The notes beneath the pieces were generated by a model. The model did no database searches and was not told the DNA's origin. It saw only the letters and a list, made by a program, of their open reading frames with translations. Positions 11,849 to 50,134 of a stretch of 64,000 nt of DNA are shown piece after piece. How positions within the stretch are numbered: the first letter of the stretch is position 1; each line of letters begins with the position of its first letter. The stretch covers positions 527,217 through 591,216 of the forward strand of contig NZ_JAAJBV010000001.1 of assembly GCF_011392075.1 (NCBI RefSeq), given 5' to 3'. The DNA is from Flavobacterium celericrescens (GTDB lineage: Bacteria > Bacteroidota > Bacteroidia > Flavobacteriales > Flavobacteriaceae). A program made the translations under genes and the position numbers.

Positions 11849-14047
11849 ATGAACTTCCTAAAGCGATATTTTTTTATAATCTTTTTAAGTGTTAGTTTTC
11901 AAGGACTTGTTGCACAAGTTAATGATACAGATAGCGCTAAATCTAAAGAATTGTTAAAAAAAGCAGGCAAAAGTTTTTTGGATTTAGAATGTCAAAAATC
12001 ATTAAATTTTGCTAAAGCTTCACTTGAAATTTCTTTAAAAAATGAAGATTATTTGCAATCAGCTAAAGCATATAACTTAATTGGACTAAACTTTGAGGAA
12101 TTTTCAGATTATAAAAAGGCGATTGAGTTTTATCATAAAGGATTAGAATTTGCAAATAAAACCACTAATGACACCGTTAAAGGATGGCTGTACAATAACT
12201 TAGGAAACGTTTATTGTTATCGAAAAATAAATTTCAAAAAAGGAATTGAAAATTATAAAAAAGGAATTTATTTTTCTGAAAAACTTAACGATCAATATGA
12301 AATTACCTTTTCAAAACTAAATATTGGAAGTGCTTATTTTGCTATCGAAGATTTTAATACAGGGATTAGGTATTTTAATGAAATCAAGAATTACGTCGAC
12401 AAAGAAGGCGAATTAGAGGCAAAAATTTCTTTAAATTCTAACTTTGGATTGTATTATAATCATCTCAATAATTTTAAAAAAGCAGAAGAATATTATATAA
12501 AAGCAGTTGAGTTTTGTGAACAAAATGACATAGAACTAATCAAGTCAAATGCAGTGGTGGTTTATAAAGATATTTCAAATCTTTATTTTAAAATGAAAAA
12601 TTTTGAAAAAGCACACCACTATTTACTTAAGCATGAAGAACTTAAAGATAAAATCTATAATGAAGATAGAATTAATGAGGTAAAAGTTGCTGGATTAGCT
12701 ATTCAACAGGATGAAATAAATAGAAAAATCAGCCAAATTGAAGCTCAGAAAAAAATACAAGATGAAAAATTAAAAAACAATCGACAATTCATCATTTTTT
12801 CGAGTATTATTGTTTTTATCTTGATTTTATTATTGCTTTCGTTTGTTAGAAATAATAGATTGAAAGCTAAAATTAATAAAAAACTGCAAAAAGCCAATTT
12901 AGAATTATTAGAAGCCAAAGAAAAAGCCGAAGAAGCATCTCAATTAAAAACACAATTTATTTCAACAATAAGTCATGAATTAAGAACGCCTTTATATGGA
13001 GTGGTTGGGATTACTGATATAATATTAGACGAACACAAAGAATTAGCTAATAGCCCACACTTAAAATCATTAAAATTTTCGGCTAAATATTTACTTTCGT
13101 TGGTAAACGATATTTTGAAAGTATATAAAATTGAGGAAAAACAAGTGGTTTTAGACGAAATGGTTTTTAATATTTATGACGAATTAGCCATAATAAAAGA
13201 TTCGCTATACTTCTTAGCAATCAAAAACAGTAACCAAATTCATATTGATGTTGATAGCAATATTCCTGAAGTTGTAATTGGCGACAAGATACGTTTATCG
13301 CAAATTTTTATTAATCTTATTAGTAATTCTTTGAAGTTTACTACTAATGGTTATGTAACGGTTAGAGCTAGTTTAGTAGAAAAAATTGGAAGTAAAACTC
13401 AAATTAAATTTCAAGTAATTGATAACGGAATAGGAATTGCGAAGAAAGACCAAGAAAAGGTTTTTGAAAAATTTGTACAAGTAGTTAGAAAAGAAGATGA
13501 CTATCAAGGAACTGGGCTTGGATTAACTATTGTAAAAAAAATGGTAGAATTGTTCAAAGGAACAATTACATTAGAAAGCGAAGAAAACAAAGGAACTGCC
13601 GTAATATTTGTTCTTCCGTTTGAATCAGACGTTGAAAAAGCAGGTACAATTATAAATAACTTAAAAGTTGATTTGTCAAGCAAACGAGATTACAAAATAT
13701 TGGTTGTAGAAGACAACAAAATCAATCAAGTAGTAACGAGAAAGCTGCTAGAAAACAATAATTTTAAATGTGAAATAGTTGATGATGGTTATGCCGCAAT
13801 AGAAATATTAGAAAAAACCAATTTTGATGCTATTTTGATGGATATAAATATGCCATTAATTAATGGTTTTGAAACCTCTAAAATTATCAGACAAAAAGGC
13901 AATACTATTCCTATTATTGCGGTTACGGCTTTTGATAAGCAAGACATCGAAGAAAAAATAAAAGAAGCAAAAATCGACGAAGTTATTGTAAAACCATTCG
14001 ACAGTAAAAAGTTATTTGAAGTTATAAAACGATTCGTGGAAGAGTAG
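11849..14047 (+). CDS. Hybrid sensor histidine kinase with TPR sensor and receiver domain
   Basis: A 732-residue membrane kinase. Order: signal sequence (1-22), periplasmic tetratricopeptide repeats (about 35-270), a coiled-coil stretch, one membrane helix (about 313-333), a second coiled coil, HisKA with the phosphorylated His376 in SHELRTPLYG, HATPase_c (about 475-615; N box ISNSLKFT, G boxes DNGIGIA and GTGLGLTI), and a C-terminal receiver with Asp665 in MDINMP and the switch Lys in VIVKPFD. There is no output DNA-binding domain, so phosphate probably passes to an unlinked phosphotransfer protein or regulator. It is monocistronic and no partner is adjacent. The ligand is unknown; TPR sensors usually sense protein or peptide partners. 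Confidence 0.93.
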   Translation: MNFLKRYFFIIFLSVSFQGLVAQVNDTDSAKSKELLKKAGKSFLDLECQKSLNFAKASLEISLKNEDYLQSAKAYNLIGLNFEEFSDYKKAIEFYHKGLEFANKTTNDTVKGWLYNNLGNVYCYRKINFKKGIENYKKGIYFSEKLNDQYEITFSKLNIGSAYFAIEDFNTGIRYFNEIKNYVDKEGELEAKISLNSNFGLYYNHLNNFKKAEEYYIKAVEFCEQNDIELIKSNAVVVYKDISNLYFKMKNFEKAHHYLLKHEELKDKIYNEDRINEVKVAGLAIQQDEINRKISQIEAQKKIQDEKLKNNRQFIIFSSIIVFILILLLLSFVRNNRLKAKINKKLQKANLELLEAKEKAEEASQLKTQFISTISHELRTPLYGVVGITDIILDEHKELANSPHLKSLKFSAKYLLSLVNDILKVYKIEEKQVVLDEMVFNIYDELAIIKDSLYFLAIKNSNQIHIDVDSNIPEVVIGDKIRLSQIFINLISNSLKFTTNGYVTVRASLVEKIGSKTQIKFQVIDNGIGIAKKDQEKVFEKFVQVVRKEDDYQGTGLGLTIVKKMVELFKGTITLESEENKGTAVIFVLPFESDVEKAGTIINNLKVDLSSKRDYKILVVEDNKINQVVTRKLLENNNFKCEIVDDGYAAIEILEKTNFDAILMDINMPLINGFETSKIIRQKGNTIPIIAVTAFDKQDIEEKIKEAKIDEVIVKPFDSKKLFEVIKRFVEE

Positions 14048-15221: not shown

Positions 15222-17120
15222 ATGAGTGACGCTATACAACACGAATGTGGAATTGCATTACTACGATTAAAAAAACCGTTAGAATTCTATAAAGAAAAAT
15301 ACGGAACCGCTTTTTATGGAGTACAAAAAATGTACTTACTTATGGAAAAGCAACACAACCGCGGTCAAGACGGAGCTGGATTAGCAAGTATTAAATTGGA
15401 TGTAAATCCAGGTGAAAGATACATTAGCCGTATTCGTTCAAACGACCCACAACCTATTAAGGATATCTTTGCTCAAATCAACGACAGAATCAGTCGTGAG
15501 TTGGAAGAACATCCAGAATATCAAAACAATGTGGCGCTTCAAAAACAAAATATTCCATATTTGGGAGAAGTGTTTTTGGGTCACGTTCGTTATGGAACTT
15601 TCGGTAAAAATAGCATTGAAAGTGTTCACCCATTTTTACGTCAAAACAATTGGATGCACCGTAATTTAATTGTAGCGGGAAATTTTAACATGACGAATGT
15701 AAAGGAGTTGTTTCAAAATTTAATTGACTTAGGACAACATCCAAAACAAATGGCCGATACTGTTACCGTAATGGAAAAAATCGGACATTTTTTAGATGAT
15801 GAGGTTACCGAATTATACAAACAATGCAAACAAGAAGGATACTCTAAACAGGAAGCTTCACCAGTTATCGGAGAACGATTAAATATACAACGCATTTTAG
15901 AACGCGCTTCTCGTAATTTCGATGGAGGATACGCAATGGCTGGACTTTTCGGTCATGGCGATTCGTTCGTTTTGCGCGATCCTGCTGGAATTCGTCCTGC
16001 GTATTTCTACGAAGATGATGAAATTGTAGTGGTGGCTTCTGAACGTCCGGTAATTCAAACGGTTTTCAACGTTGCTTTCGAAAAAGTGCAAGAATTAAAT
16101 CCAGGAAGTGCTATCATCATCAAGAAAAACGGAAATGTTTCAGTTCAAGAAGTGAGAACTCCGTTAATCAAAAAAGCATGTTCGTTTGAGCGTATTTATT
16201 TTTCTCGCGGAAGCGATGCTGAAATTTATAACGAGCGAAAAGAATTAGGAAAATTAATCTTCCCAAGTGTTTTAAAAGCCATCGATAATGATACCGATAA
16301 TACGGTTTTCTCGTTTATTCCAAATACAGCAGAAACTTCTTTTTACGGAATGTCTGAAGCAGCTCAAGATTTCTTAAATCAAAGAAAAGCCAAAGCAATT
16401 ATCGAGCAAAAAGATACCTTAACGGAAGACACTTTGAAAGAATTACTTTCGGTAAAAATCAGAACGGAGAAAATTGCGATTAAAGACGCAAAATTAAGAA
16501 CGTTTATTACTGAAGATAGCAGTCGTGATGATTTAGTAGCGCACGTTTACGACGTAACGTATGGAGTAGTAAAACCGACGGATAATTTGGTAATTATTGA
16601 TGATAGTATTGTAAGAGGAACTACTTTAAAACAAAGTATCATTAAAATGATGGATCGTTTGCAACCAAAGAAAATTGTCGTGGTTTCATCAGCGCCTCAA
16701 ATTCGTTATCCTGATTGTTACGGAATCGATATGGCGAAATTAGAAGGTTTAGTGGCTTTCAGAGCGGCATTAGAATTATTAAGAGAACGCAATTTATATC
16801 ATATTGTAGAAGAGGTTTATCAAAAGTCAAAAGCACAAGAAGATTTTAATGATGCAGATGTGGTGAATTATGTAAAAGAAATTTACGCACCATTTACAGA
16901 TCAAGAAATTTCAGATAAAATTGCCGAAATGCTTACACCAGATAACACAAAGGCAGAAGTGAAAATTATATACCAAACGGTGGAAGATTTGCATAGAGCT
17001 TGCCCGAAAAACTTAGGTGACTGGTATTTCACAGGAGATTATCCAACAGATGGTGGAAATAGAGTAGTAAACCGAGCTTTTATGAATTTTTATGAAGGAA
17101 AAGATGCTCGTGCATATTAA
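15222..17120 (+). CDS. purF: Amidophosphoribosyltransferase
   Basis: A 632-residue first enzyme of purine synthesis, making phosphoribosylamine from PRPP and glutamine. The N-terminal glutaminase nucleophile is Cys9 (HECGIA), so an eight-residue propeptide should be removed. Glutamine-binding elements HNRGQDGAG and HVRYGTFG follow. The PRPP-binding motif VIIDDSIVRGTT is near residues 457-468. The protein is longer than the roughly 500-residue E. coli enzyme, with extra residues inside the phosphoribosyltransferase half and at the C-terminus. I recall longer PurF forms in Bacteroidota, and no frameshift is apparent. The two tandem RNA units follow directly after its stop. Confidence 0.93.
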   Translation: MSDAIQHECGIALLRLKKPLEFYKEKYGTAFYGVQKMYLLMEKQHNRGQDGAGLASIKLDVNPGERYISRIRSNDPQPIKDIFAQINDRISRELEEHPEYQNNVALQKQNIPYLGEVFLGHVRYGTFGKNSIESVHPFLRQNNWMHRNLIVAGNFNMTNVKELFQNLIDLGQHPKQMADTVTVMEKIGHFLDDEVTELYKQCKQEGYSKQEASPVIGERLNIQRILERASRNFDGGYAMAGLFGHGDSFVLRDPAGIRPAYFYEDDEIVVVASERPVIQTVFNVAFEKVQELNPGSAIIIKKNGNVSVQEVRTPLIKKACSFERIYFSRGSDAEIYNERKELGKLIFPSVLKAIDNDTDNTVFSFIPNTAETSFYGMSEAAQDFLNQRKAKAIIEQKDTLTEDTLKELLSVKIRTEKIAIKDAKLRTFITEDSSRDDLVAHVYDVTYGVVKPTDNLVIIDDSIVRGTTLKQSIIKMMDRLQPKKIVVVSSAPQIRYPDCYGIDMAKLEGLVAFRAALELLRERNLYHIVEEVYQKSKAQEDFNDADVVNYVKEIYAPFTDQEISDKIAEMLTPDNTKAEVKIIYQTVEDLHRACPKNLGDWYFTGDYPTDGGNRVVNRAFMNFYEGKDARAY

Positions 17121-17128
17121 AAAGCGCG

Positions 17129-17180
17129 TTTCATCGACTTTTTATTTCGTTTAACAATTTTTTTACAAGTATATAATATC
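17129..17180 (+). promoter_or_regulatory. Putative promoter of RNA copy 1
   Basis: The boxes TTTAACAATT (17150-17159) and TAATATCTTG (17174-17183) are the only blocks kept in both copies besides TTTCATCGA, and sit about one promoter length apart. They depart from the TTG/TAnnTTTG consensus. Start of transcription is probably around 17185-17190. The matching region of copy 2 is 17338-17389. Confidence 0.5.
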
Positions 17181-17272
17181 TTGTTCTACTTTAGCTCTAC
17201 CAGAAAATTAGTAGGTTAAGTTTTATGGTAGATTTGGGGCAAAAAGGGTGAAAGTAATTTCACCTTTTTTTA
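17178..17272 (+). ncRNA. Structured small RNA, copy 1
   Basis: No start codon or reading frame explains the conservation. The body folds as a long hairpin: TCTACCA (17196-17202) pairs with TGGTAGA (17226-17232), the stem extending inward through AAAATTA and TAAGTTTT with a bulged G around a GTAGGT loop. A GGGGC-AAAAA linker then leads to an intrinsic terminator, GGTGAAA/TTTCACC with four loop bases and seven T. The likely product is 85-90 nt. It may belong to a known Flavobacteria RNA family (6S-Flavo and Flavo-1 are ones to test), but I could not confirm either. Confidence 0.7.
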
Positions 17273-17386
17273 TGTAGTAAATTTAAATTTTTATAAGAAA
17301 AATCGCTTTTTGTGAATTAATCATGTAATTAAATGCATTTCATCGAATATTTGTGCTATTTAACAATTATTTTATGCTAGCATAAC

Positions 17387-17481
17387 ATCTTGTTCTACTT
17401 TAGCTCTACCAGAAAATTAGTAGGTTAAGTTTTATGGTAGATTTGGGGCAAAAAGGGTGAAAGCAATTTCACCTTTTTTAT
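17387..17481 (+). ncRNA. Structured small RNA, copy 2
   Basis: Identical to copy 1 over 87 nt except T to C at 17464, which lies in the terminator loop and does not disturb pairing. The T-run is one base shorter. The copy has its own promoter-like boxes upstream and its own terminator, so it should be expressed independently. It is followed 27 nt later by the sodA terminator, which reads the other way. Confidence 0.7.
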
Positions 17482-17507
17482 TGTCAGAATAAAAATTGGT
17501 AAAATAC

Positions 17508-17545
17508 AAAAAAGCCGAAGAGTCGCCATACTCTTCGGCTTTTTC
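17508..17545. terminator. Terminator of sodA
   Basis: Perfect 10-bp stem AGCCGAAGAG/CTCTTCGGCT with flanking A- and T-runs on both sides. It ends the minus-strand sodA transcript and can also stop plus-strand read-through from the RNA units. Confidence 0.85.
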
Positions 17546-17563: not shown

Positions 17564-18169
17564 TTATTTTGCCGCTGCAAAACGTTTTGCTACTTCAACC
17601 CAGTTAATTACATTAAAGAAAGCCTCAATATAATCAGGACGACGGTTTTGATAATGTAAGTAGTAAGCATGTTCCCAAACATCCATTCCTAAGATTGGTT
17701 GACCGCCACAAGCCACACCTGGCATTAATGGGTTGTCTTGGTTTGGAGTTGAACAAACTTCTAATTTCCCATCTTTCACACATAACCAAGCCCATCCTGA
17801 ACCAAAACGAGTAGCTCCAGCTTTAGCAAATTCTGCTTTAAAAGCATCAAATGAACCAAAAGCTGCGTCAATTGCAGTAGCTAATTCACCTGTTGGTAAA
17901 CCACCACCATTTGGCGACATAATTTCCCAAAACATAGTGTGATTATAATGTCCACCACCATTGTTGCGAACTGGCATGTTGTTCATGTCTAAATTTTTCA
18001 TCAAATCTTCGATAGATTTTCCTTCTAAATCACTTCCCGCAATAGCAGCGTTTAAGTTGGTAACGTATGCGTTGTGGTGTTTAGAATGATGAATTTCCAT
18101 TGTTCTAGCGTCAATATGTGGTTCCAATGCATCGTATGCATAAGGTAATTGTGGTAATTCGAAAGCCAT
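17564..18169 (-). CDS. sodA: Superoxide dismutase, Mn/Fe family (Mn-like residues)
   Basis: A 201-residue cytosolic enzyme converting superoxide to oxygen and peroxide. Metal ligands are His27 (in MEIHHSKHH), the second His in [10 protein letters not shown], and Asp and His of [11 protein letters not shown]. The outer-sphere Gln is in the C-terminal half ([10 protein letters not shown]), as in Mn enzymes, rather than in the N-terminal position of Fe enzymes. Metal use by sequence is only suggestive and a cambialistic enzyme is possible. It is monocistronic, with its own promoter and terminator. Confidence 0.95.
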
Positions 18170-42473: not shown

Positions 42474-43157
42474 TTATGAATCTGTATATGCAATTGTAAT
42501 AATGCTAATTTTTGTATTGGGAATTTTTAACAAAGCTCTTGCACAAGCTTCTAATGTGGCGCCAGAAGTTATAACGTCATCTACCAACAAAAAATGTTTA
42601 CCTGAATCTGCTGTTGTATATTTTACGTCAAAAAGAGAATTATTGACTTCAGCTCGAGCTTCTTTGCTTTTTTTAGTTTGTGATTTTGAGTACACATTTC
42701 TATATAAGAGTGTTTCATTGTAACCAATTTCTAAATTTTCTGAAAGCGCTTTACAAAATGTTGTTACTTGATTATAACCTCTCTCTTTTAGGCGTTTTTG
42801 ATGGAGTGGAACTGGAATTATTTCAGAAAAAGCATGCTCTTTTGCAATTTCTTTTAAATCATTTGCATACCAATTTCCAAGAAAAGTGCCAATTTCTTGA
42901 TGGTTTCTATATTTTAAATTGTGAATTAGATTTTGCACAACACCTTTTTTGTGAAAATAAAGCATTGCGCAAGAAAATTCAATTGGGATTATGCCATAAA
43001 ATTTTTTTGTTGTATAATTGTCTTTTAAAAGATGATGTTGGGTAAGCGGAAGTTGATGCCTGCAATCGGTACAAATTATTTTTTCGTTTTGTAATAAAAG
43101 AGAATTACAGCCATTACATAATTTGGGAAAAAGTAAGTTTATCAGGTTTTTTAGCAT
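42474..43157 (-). CDS. ComF family phosphoribosyltransferase-like protein
   Basis: A 227-residue protein with an N-terminal zinc-ribbon (CNGCNSLLL and ICTDCRHQLP) and a C-terminal type I phosphoribosyltransferase fold holding the PRPP loop LLVDDVITSGATLEACA. VPLHQKRLKERGYNQ is a further ComF hallmark. ComF acts in DNA uptake in naturally competent bacteria and is widely kept elsewhere. No other competence genes are nearby. It is divergent from the coiled-coil gene at 43220. Confidence 0.92.
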   Translation of the reverse strand: MLKNLINLLFPKLCNGCNSLLLQNEKIICTDCRHQLPLTQHHLLKDNYTTKKFYGIIPIEFSCAMLYFHKKGVVQNLIHNLKYRNHQEIGTFLGNWYANDLKEIAKEHAFSEIIPVPLHQKRLKERGYNQVTTFCKALSENLEIGYNETLLYRNVYSKSQTKKSKEARAEVNNSLFDVKYTTADSGKHFLLVDDVITSGATLEACARALLKIPNTKISIITIAYTDS

Positions 43158-43219
43158 TTTATCGATTTATCAAAACAAATTTAACATTTTTAAATACTTT
43201 CGTAATACAATATTAAGAA

Positions 43220-44017
43220 ATGGCAATTAGAAAAAACAAAATTACAAAAATCAGCATCATTATTTTGATGTTGTTATTGTTGTTTTTTAGTGTCAAATAT
43301 TACAAAGTAAAAGAAGAGTTAACGACATTTAAAGAGCATTCAGAATTAGAAATAAAAGTTCTTGAAAGTCAACTTGGAGAAATACTTCATAAATATGATT
43401 CATTGAGTGAAGAATCAAAACATAATGCAGAATTAATAGCATTGAACATAGATTCTAAATCAATTAATGATGAATCAACTTCACAAATTAATTCAACTGC
43501 TAGTTCAATTAATGACTCTATTGTTTTTTATGCAAAAAGAGCTCAAGAGTTAAACACTCAAATTGCTCAAAAGAAACAAGCAATAGCTGATAATTCTAAA
43601 GCTTCTCAAAATACTAGTCAAGCAAATCTTTATAAATTATCTGCATCTAATATTAATGCTAAAGGAGTAAAGATATATTCTGATTTGTATAAAGCTAATA
43701 ATTCACAAATTCAGCAATTGAGAGTTTGTTATACTTTACAAAGAAACGACGTTGTCAAATCTGGGTCAAGAAAAATATACATTCAGGTTGTAAATCCTAA
43801 AAATCAAATTATTTCTAAAGACAATTCATATGTTGAAGATGCTTTAGGAGCAAGATTACAATTTAGTGCAATTTCTGAAGTTAATTACAATAAGAAAGAC
43901 ACAGATGTTTGTGCTTATGTTGATCTAGAAAAAAACAAAACTATTAAAGGGAATTATATCATAAATATTTACAGTGATTTCACTAAAATTGGTTCTACAA
44001 TTTTCGAATACAAATAA
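43220..44017 (+). CDS. Membrane-anchored coiled-coil protein of unknown function
   Basis: A 265-residue protein with a basic N-terminus, one membrane helix (about 10-27), and a long predicted coiled coil (about 30-150, rich in Glu, Lys, Ser, Gln). A beta-rich C-terminal domain (about 150-265: LRVCYTLQRNDVVKSGSRKIYIQVVNPK, DVCAYVDLEKNKTIKGNYIINIYSD) faces the periplasm. I recall similar flavobacterial proteins of unknown function next to glyS. A near-consensus -7 element (TACTTTCG) lies upstream. Confidence 0.7.
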   Translation: MAIRKNKITKISIIILMLLLLFFSVKYYKVKEELTTFKEHSELEIKVLESQLGEILHKYDSLSEESKHNAELIALNIDSKSINDESTSQINSTASSINDSIVFYAKRAQELNTQIAQKKQAIADNSKASQNTSQANLYKLSASNINAKGVKIYSDLYKANNSQIQQLRVCYTLQRNDVVKSGSRKIYIQVVNPKNQIISKDNSYVEDALGARLQFSAISEVNYNKKDTDVCAYVDLEKNKTIKGNYIINIYSDFTKIGSTIFEYK

Positions 44018-48705: not shown

Positions 48706-49434
48706 ATGAATTGGATAATTGTATATAGTGTTGTTTTAATTCTATTAATCATAGGATTGTTGTGGCTTTGGAATCACAATAGAAAACTGATGCAAGCACT
48801 TCAAGACTTTCAAAAGCAAAATGCGGAAGTTTATGAAAAGGCCAAGTTTTTAGAACTCGAAAACATCAGCTCGAAACTTAATCCGCATTTGTTTAAAAAT
48901 ATTTTAAATTCGATTCAATCGCATGCGTATCAAACCTATTATGCCATTGATAAAATGTCAGGTGTTTTGGATTATATTTTATACGAAAGTCAGAAAAACA
49001 GAGTCACTCCAAAAGACGAATTGTATTTTACACAACAACTTATCGAAGTCAATAAAATCAAGTTAAGTCCACTTTTTGAATTGTCAGTAAAGACAAAAAT
49101 TGATACTGAAGATTCCTTTTATAACAAGCCAGTAATTCCGCCCTTAATTACAGTGGATTTAATTGAAAACGCATTTAAACATGCTGATATTCAAAGTTCG
49201 GATTCGTTTATAAATATCGTTTTAGAATGTCGAAATGCTTATTTTAAGATTACGGTTTCCAATAAAATATCTTCGCAACCTAAATTACTAAAAGAAAACA
49301 GCGGTATCGGATTGCAAAATCTTGAAAAACGCTTGAAGTTAATTTACGGAAACAACTACAAACTCAATATTGGAATTGATGGCGATTCCTATGTAGCACA
49401 ACTAAAAATAGATTTCAAAGATGCAACAGCTTAA
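48706..49434 (+). CDS. LytS-type sensor histidine kinase (His_kinase family)
   Basis: A 242-residue kinase with a single N-terminal membrane helix (about 4-22), a short coiled coil, and the His_kinase domain with phospho-acceptor His61 in KLNPHLFKNILNSIQ. It is followed by a degenerate ATPase domain with the N box DLIENAFKHAD and G box GIGLQNLEKRL. There is no sensor domain beyond the membrane helix, so the stimulus may be membrane state or a partner protein. It overlaps the response-regulator gene by 14 nt, an evident two-component pair. Confidence 0.92.
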   Translation: MNWIIVYSVVLILLIIGLLWLWNHNRKLMQALQDFQKQNAEVYEKAKFLELENISSKLNPHLFKNILNSIQSHAYQTYYAIDKMSGVLDYILYESQKNRVTPKDELYFTQQLIEVNKIKLSPLFELSVKTKIDTEDSFYNKPVIPPLITVDLIENAFKHADIQSSDSFINIVLECRNAYFKITVSNKISSQPKLLKENSGIGLQNLEKRLKLIYGNNYKLNIGIDGDSYVAQLKIDFKDATA

Positions 49435-50134
49435 ATGTGTTTTGTTAGATGATGAAATTCCAGGGTTGACTTATTTGAAGTTGCTCTGCGAACAAATTCC
49501 TGAAATTGAAATCGTAAAATCATTCAATGACCCATTGCTTTTTATCAAAGAACAAGAAAAATTAGATTACGATTTATGTATCTGCGATATCGAAATGCCA
49601 GGTTTAAAAGGAACAGAAGTAGCACAATTAATTCAATCGAAAATGATTTTGTTCACAACGGCTTACAAAGAATTTGCAGTTGAAGCTTTTGAGTTGAATG
49701 CTGTTGATTATTTAACTAAGCCATTAAAAAAAGAACGTTTGCAAGTTGCCATAGAAAAAGCACTATTGCGTAAGGAACAAATAGCACCAATTGCTCAAAC
49801 CATTCAATGGCAAACCGAAAAAGGAAAAGCGGTTTTACAAATTGAAAATATTTTGCACATCCAAACATCAGCAATTGATAGTCGCGACAAGCAAATGATT
49901 TACGATAATCAAATCATTACTTTGAAAAACATTACATTTGAAAAATTAAAGCACTTATTACCTTCAAATTCGTATTGTCAAATCAATAAAAACGAAATAA
50001 TTCGTTTGCATTGTGTGACTTTTTTTACGGCTGATCAAATTGATACTTCTATTGTATTTCAAAACAAAAAAATGGTACTTTCCATAGGGAATAGTTATAA
50101 AGCTGAGTTTTCAGAGAAAATGAAAAATTTCTAA
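49421..50134 (+). CDS. LytTR-family response regulator
   Basis: A 237-residue regulator with an N-terminal receiver (phospho-Asp56 in CDIEMPGLKG, conserved Lys in YLTKPLKK) and a C-terminal LytTR DNA-binding domain (about 135-237, with the LPSNSYCQINKNEIIRL region). LytTR proteins bind paired direct repeats about one turn apart. The CPA2 antiporter gene begins 135 nt downstream and is a plausible target, though no repeat pair was identified there. Confidence 0.93.
   Translation: MQQLKCVLLDDEIPGLTYLKLLCEQIPEIEIVKSFNDPLLFIKEQEKLDYDLCICDIEMPGLKGTEVAQLIQSKMILFTTAYKEFAVEAFELNAVDYLTKPLKKERLQVAIEKALLRKEQIAPIAQTIQWQTEKGKAVLQIENILHIQTSAIDSRDKQMIYDNQIITLKNITFEKLKHLLPSNSYCQINKNEIIRLHCVTFFTADQIDTSIVFQNKKMVLSIGNSYKAEFSEKMKNF

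Follow-up and report, generated by a model that had tools for sequence, protein, structure and literature searches.

The OmrA and OmrB small RNAs (sRNAs) of enterobacteria are tandem siblings that depend on Hfq and are driven by OmpR, which also controls outer-membrane genes. The LhrC sRNAs of Listeria occur as several near-identical copies, mostly in tandem, and have envelope-related targets. In Bacteroides, the paralogous sRNAs FopS and GibS are multicopy and carry canonical sigma-A promoters, and FopS represses the mRNAs of outer-membrane SusC transporters (PMC11697453). The family has 14 copies in B. thetaiotaomicron, classed as intergenic, antisense or 3'-UTR-derived, and FopS is reported to be conserved within Bacteroidaceae; the marks of the family are its R1 seed sequence and RbpB binding (PMC11697453). 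Closer in organism are Rfp11, Rfp13, Rfp15 and Rfp18 of Flavobacterium psychrophilum, structured RNAs conserved in other species. In Rfp18, which folds into three or more stem-loops, the third pairs with metalloprotease mRNAs, and the Rfp11 promoter is SM6, ECF-type, CGT (PMC9723704). Control by sRNAs in Flavobacteriaceae is barely charted in the literature searched, and the RNA described below is not mentioned in the article listings and text passages covered by that search. Tables of non-coding RNAs exist for F. psychrophilum (the Rfp RNAs, PMC9723704) and for F. columnare (PMC5395568).

Two tandem units between purF and sodA

The window, that is, the whole 64,000-nt stretch of Flavobacterium celericrescens DNA analysed here, had been the subject of a sequence-only reading, which described two sRNA-type units after purF that repeat without a gap at a 209-nt offset. 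A repeat search of the window bears this out, placing two tandem units 209 nt apart in the interval between the following genes:

15222 to 17120, forward strand: purF (open reading frame), the upstream neighbour of the array
17564 to 18169, reverse strand: sodA, a superoxide dismutase gene (open reading frame), convergent with and downstream of the array

The names purF and sodA rest on resemblance. A 103-nt stretch occurs twice at the 209-nt spacing (17173-17275 and 17382-17484) with 96% identity, and each copy is preceded by a 53-nt stretch, 72% identical, at the same offset. This upstream part is more than diverged spacer and contains a conserved direct repeat with 20-bp spacing. As had been read, a single base of the terminator loop separates the RNA bodies of the two copies; the predicted RNAs (17199-17271, 73 nt, versus 17408-17479, 72 nt) also end in T runs of unequal length. 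By blastn, the whole 2.8-Mb genome contains no copies of the unit beyond the two in the array. The duplication is common and not peculiar to this window, as at least two distinct copies were found in 61 of 85 strand-wise arrays.

Two other elements in the neighbourhood may be recorded here. A 15-bp inverted repeat without mismatches, flanked by T runs (17509-17544), is likely the sodA terminator, possibly a bidirectional one, and 11849-14047 encodes a 732-aa protein that by eye resembles a hybrid sensor kinase whose N-terminal half is TPR-like.

Start, parts and fold of the predicted RNA

Across 175 distinct copies (100 from the genus and 75 from other genera) the promoter is conserved as TA at -12/-11, TT at -8/-7 and G at -5, all at a fixed distance from ACCA. 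The sigma-A box TAnnTTTG sits at -12 to -5 according to PMC9723704, and from the match to it at these positions transcription is predicted to begin with the A of ACCA, at 17199 and at 17408. With a start at 17199, the TCT of TCTACCA/TGGTAGA falls outside the predicted RNA, so the 7-bp stem of the sequence-only reading loses its outer 3 bp; this TCT also varies in relatives. The parts are:

17187 to 17194, forward strand: -7 box of copy 1, sigma-A type, TACTTTAG (TA/TT/G columns conserved in the 175 copies; consensus from PMC9723704)
17396 to 17403, forward strand: -7 box of copy 2, TACTTTAG (sequence and conserved columns)
17199 to 17271, forward strand: predicted sRNA of copy 1, 73 nt (alignment, covariance model)
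17408 to 17479, forward strand: predicted sRNA of copy 2, 72 nt (alignment, covariance model)
17199 to 17229, forward strand: 5' hairpin of copy 1, with a GUAGG(U) loop that is a candidate seed (folding, pair counts)
17230 to 17240, forward strand: linker of copy 1, AGATTTGGGGC, a candidate seed (alignments A2 and A3)
17241 to 17271, forward strand: intrinsic terminator of copy 1 (double changes in 7 of 8 counted pairs)

The predicted RNA begins with a hairpin that ACCA/UGGU closes and whose loop is GUAGG(U); the 11-nt linker, AGAUUUGGGGC, and a terminator follow. A core of about 47 nt is near-invariant across genera, both strands of the stem included, with the exposed loop and linker ranking among its best-conserved segments. 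This agrees with the earlier suggestions that the loop and the UUUGGGGCAAAAA linker are candidate seeds, since both are near-invariant, that each unit has its own promoter-like boxes and terminator, and that the units are sibling sRNA-type elements under strong constraint. With a promoter and an intrinsic terminator for each copy, and without a conserved open reading frame, the array has the composition of trans-acting sibling sRNAs.

When 94-nt stretches of the two copies were compared with 200 shuffles, the z scores were -3.5 and -3.6, with 0 and 2 shuffles folding as well; for the predicted RNA itself (74 nt folded, 200 shuffles) z was -2.8 and 4 shuffles folded as well. Of six sequences folded, five have the shape of hairpin, linker and terminator as their minimum-energy fold. 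In the window's own copy only the centroid shows the hairpin, the minimum-energy fold pairing CCAGA with UUUGG of the linker, and RNAalifold on alignment A2 favours an alternative akin to this pairing. Given these alternative folds, it is possible that the RNA switches between the hairpin and the other structure. The covariation that the earlier reading had proposed as support is clear in the terminator, in the 7 of 8 pairs already mentioned, and sparse in the 5' hairpin, where only 3 of 11 pairs show double changes; the hairpin is therefore supported more by conservation than by covariation. In close relatives (loci L003, L004, L005, L006, L009, L011 and L021) some copies have another terminator stem, GGGTACGC...GCGTGCC, with the core unchanged.

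Might the near-invariant core instead be a short gene, in which ATGGTAGATTTGGGGCAAAAA... codes for a conserved peptide? A start reading MVDLGQK can be found in most of the 175 copies. However, in 10 of the 175 one extra nucleotide separates the ATG from the linker, and the A run is anywhere from 2 to 7 long, so that the frame and end of the peptide differ. Third positions of codons, too, show no less invariance than the first two. I rejected the candidate on these length changes, which break the frame, and regard a peptide gene as very improbable.

Distribution of the RNA and its place in the genome

Rfam 15 gave zero families at gathering score for the window, 6S-Flavo and Flavo-1 included, so the membership in these two families that the sequence-only reading wished to see checked was not found at that score. 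Over the two units, with permissive filters, the best match was no better than E 0.07, and the window search gave no Rfam link between this RNA and any Bacteroides sRNA family. A blastn search with one unit matched 250 of 299 sampled Flavobacterium genomes, a lower bound because the search was quick and few candidates were scored per genome.

Two covariance models were then used, R1, built from 34 copies, and R2, a broader model. R1 matched 239 of 299 genomes and 192 of 236 genera of Flavobacteriaceae, with up to 7 matches per genome. In the order-level sample 32 of 246 genomes matched, and all 32 are Flavobacteriaceae. In the class-level sample, searched with R2, there were matches in 10 of 295 genomes, six of them in the genus (the window's own genome counted) and the other four weak and without the core. 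When 36 previously matchless genomes (14 of the genus, 18 of the family and 4 of other families) were searched again with R2, three weak matches appeared; one, L100, is perhaps a degenerate relative. A pattern scan found at least 80 loci in Flavobacterium, Algibacter, Winogradskyella, Tamlana, Psychroserpens, Mariniflexile, Gaetbulibacter and others. Algibacter, Tamlana, Psychroserpens, Mariniflexile, Gaetbulibacter and the other genera listed are presumably Flavobacteriaceae; Winogradskyella is so placed in the NCBI taxonomy. Conservation across a bacterial family excludes a chance origin. Five loci of the genus are identical over 300 nt to named records, four of which carry the label Flavobacterium; the fifth locus (L028) matches a record (L129) from a metagenome bin with the label Lentimicrobium, a hint that this bin is mislabelled or mixed.

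The place of the array is nearly always the same. purF lies beside it in 86 of 88 fetched loci, a set in which some genomes are counted twice and the window's own locus three times, and among the pattern-scan matches listed the end of purF is within 1.6 kb in 75 of 80 loci. Of the five other listed loci, two have sodA without purF, one is merely 1.2 kb long, and two (L119, L140) have neither gene. sodA is present in most of the 88 fetched loci and in 68 of 80 among the pattern-scan matches listed. Off-site copies occur in L055, where the flanking genes are one for an ABC-transporter ATPase and one like recX (both named by eye), and in L061.

So close an association invites the explanation that the array is a 3'-UTR or terminator element of purF, conserved because it ends and processes the purF transcript. 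purF is directly upstream in those 86 of 88 loci and there is no terminator hairpin between purF and copy 1. Against this, each copy has conserved promoter columns and a double box of its own (described below), conservation of the core far exceeds the terminator, and copies are found away from purF (L055, L061, L119 and L140); I consider the explanation improbable. A non-transcribed repeat or mobile element, to which the tandem repetition and varying copy number might point, is hardly credible, as the place is fixed across the family, promoter-type conservation lies at fixed distances, the terminators covary and the genome has just two copies.

Two classes of copies

Outside Flavobacterium the copies fall into two classes. 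Every one of 28 multi-copy arrays has C at the bulged base of the hairpin 3' strand in its first copy after purF and U in a later one; written with T for U, the orders are CT in 20 arrays, CTT in four, CCCCT in two, and CTC and CCT in one each. Over the 85 nt upstream, same-class copies across genomes have mean identities of 0.515 and 0.506, and the two copies within one array a lower mean of 0.434. The nearest neighbour beyond its own array shares the class for 55 of 56 copies. The simplest reading of these comparisons is an old duplication, of which both products would have been kept apart outside Flavobacterium. In 33 Flavobacterium arrays the bodies of the first and last copies are 87% identical on average, and the upstream regions 59%. 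Classes kept separately in this way make the retention of near-identical sRNAs a testable question.

A double box upstream of the promoter

Upstream of the promoter is a direct repeat, in the genus approximately GCATTTCATCGA...GTTCAACAATTTTT, whose column similarity peaks at 20 bp in the genus and in other genera alike. Its geometry is 20 bp from start to start, equal to 11 bp between 9-bp units, and it extends from about -73 to -35. In the window the repeat is found at:

17130 to 17159, forward strand: double box of copy 1, a predicted regulator site (pattern with 1 mismatch; matrix score 42.0)
17339 to 17368, forward strand: double box of copy 2 (pattern with 2 mismatches; matrix score 41.3)

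The matrix was trained on genus copies, with five shuffled windows, one strand each, as the control. The next-best site in the window scores 11.2 (at 43132) and the shuffle maximum is 10.9. Using a stricter pattern (at most 3 mismatches), I found 54 matches in seven genomes versus 20 for the reversed pattern, and 11 versus 2 in the window's own genome; setting aside 17 matches that are sRNA copies gives 37 versus 20 reversed. A looser pattern showed no genome-wide enrichment (76 matches, 84 in the control).

The next-best site introduces a second predicted member of a regulon:

43138 to 43167, forward strand: double box of the second predicted regulon member (pattern in 7 of 7 genomes; matrix score 11.2, near the shuffle maximum of 10.9)
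43220 to 44017, forward strand: 265-aa protein, predicted co-regulated gene (no Pfam match; orthologues behind a double box)

Orthologues of this gene have the double box upstream in 7 of 7 genomes, with 41-78% protein identity in the six relatives. A DUF5916-type gene stands behind a box in 5 of 7 genomes (by Pfam in the window's own genome only, by eye in the others). In single genomes or pairs, box matches precede genes for a GEVED protein, adhesin- or fibronectin-type proteins, a CAP-like lipoprotein and a TPR-like protein, the last two identified by eye, and in the window's own genome also an outer-membrane barrel gene. At the gene for an OmpA-PD40 protein, box halves spaced by 20 bp occur in the window's own genome and four relatives; in three of the five (L276, L313 and L314) one half overlaps an inverted repeat that is apparently the terminator of the upstream gene. 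The -7 box lies 32 bp from the C of the second box half at the sRNA and at 43220, 33 bp from it at the GEVED gene and farther at others. Several box matches (L362/L397, L366, L369, L371 and L373) have no clear downstream gene. From these positions I predict a double-box regulon of the sRNAs and surface-type genes, and since the promoter motif also precedes some predicted surface-protein genes, the RNAs likely help to control the cell surface. The predicted regulon offers a direct route to the regulator and the targets.

As for that regulator, a LytTR-type response regulator is my leading guess for the protein that binds the double box. Promoters controlled by LytTR have direct repeats mostly 12 bp apart, in a minority 11 or 13, upstream of -35 (PMC6193735). 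The sRNA double box, with its gap in the range of 11-13 bp and its position just upstream of the promoter, has this spacing and placement. LytTR half-sites have the approximate consensus [TA][AC][CA]GTTN[AG][TG], which the half-sites of the genus fit only in part; L044 has ACAGTTTAT and GCAGTTCGT. Autoregulated LytTR systems carry the box at the regulator's own gene (PMC6193735). At six LytTR (PF04397) loci there was no double box above chance (best score 10.1, shuffles 10.9), and with all six within the shuffle range I rejected LytTR autoregulation through the double box.

About 32 kb from the sRNA array the window also contains a LytS-type histidine kinase gene (48706-49434) followed by a response regulator gene (49421-50134). 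The latter, a seventh LytTR gene, has a divergent LytTR domain (18.4 bits, under the Pfam cut-off of 22.6) and lies about 5 kb beyond the box gene at 43220-44017, a position that alone is no evidence.

Targets and function

In a search of the window's own genome for complements, the linker pattern and the loop pattern each had two perfect sites beyond the array; the context of target sites was taken from the first 30 matches of each pattern. A loop-complementary site with one mismatch lies in the OmpA-PD40 leader (L276), the single candidate pursued; it is not conserved, being absent from four orthologous leaders (L313-L316). The TTTGCACC matches before two open reading frames (L231 and L234) were set aside, as they resemble -7 promoter boxes. 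Loop complements TTAACCTACTWA with at most one mismatch number 46 in the window's own genome versus 138 for the reversed pattern, a difference that base order alone may explain.

The explanation that I favour, with moderate confidence, is that the units are tandem, redundant sibling sRNAs with their own sigma-A promoters, likely pairing with mRNAs, which form the RNA arm of a cell-surface regulon. One regulator, acting on the direct repeat spaced by 20 bp, would switch on the sRNA copies and surface genes together, each copy being transcribed from its own sigma-A promoter into an RNA of about 73 nt. Like OmrA and OmrB, the RNAs would then adjust envelope mRNAs by pairing through the GUAGGUU loop, the GAUUUGGGGC linker or both, with the dose set by copy number.

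These observations also bear on a different role, in which the core is recognised by an RNA-binding protein or by a second RNA, the dose being set through titration by the copies and not through mRNA pairing. Some 47 near-invariant nucleotides, both stem strands among them, go beyond the needs of a short seed; the copy number varies, reaching 7 matches in one genome; and the searches made gave no conserved target. Such a decoy is nevertheless rather unlikely, with one copy of the motif per RNA and with exposed loop and linker among its most conserved parts.

Taken further, the mRNA-pairing sibling sRNAs might be a core sRNA of Flavobacteriaceae, two distinct tandem paralogues after purF since early in the family and the RNA arm of an unrecognised double-box surface regulon, which would be for bacteroidetes what OmpR/OmrAB or sigma-E/RybB-MicA are as a layer of envelope control. 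I put this forward only tentatively.

Comparison with known systems

An RNA without an Rfam match, present in 192 of 236 sampled genera and nearly always at one locus, is now described by two covariance models. Nearest to it in kind is the FopS family, likewise composed of multicopy Bacteroidota sRNAs with sigma-A promoters; unlike the tandem purF-sodA units, the FopS copies are not described as one array. Nearest in organism are the Rfp RNAs, which resemble the purF-sodA RNA in being structured, conserved Flavobacterium sRNAs, and it may be another Rfp RNA of F. psychrophilum. From the available descriptions the fit is poor for Rfp18, with at least three stem-loops versus the two hairpins predicted here, and for Rfp11, whose SM6 ECF-type promoter differs from the conserved TAnnTTnG box of sigma-A type. 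LhrC shares the near-identical tandem copies and is unrelated in sequence and organism. Finally, OmrA and OmrB are unrelated in sequence and alike in their arrangement as tandem siblings.
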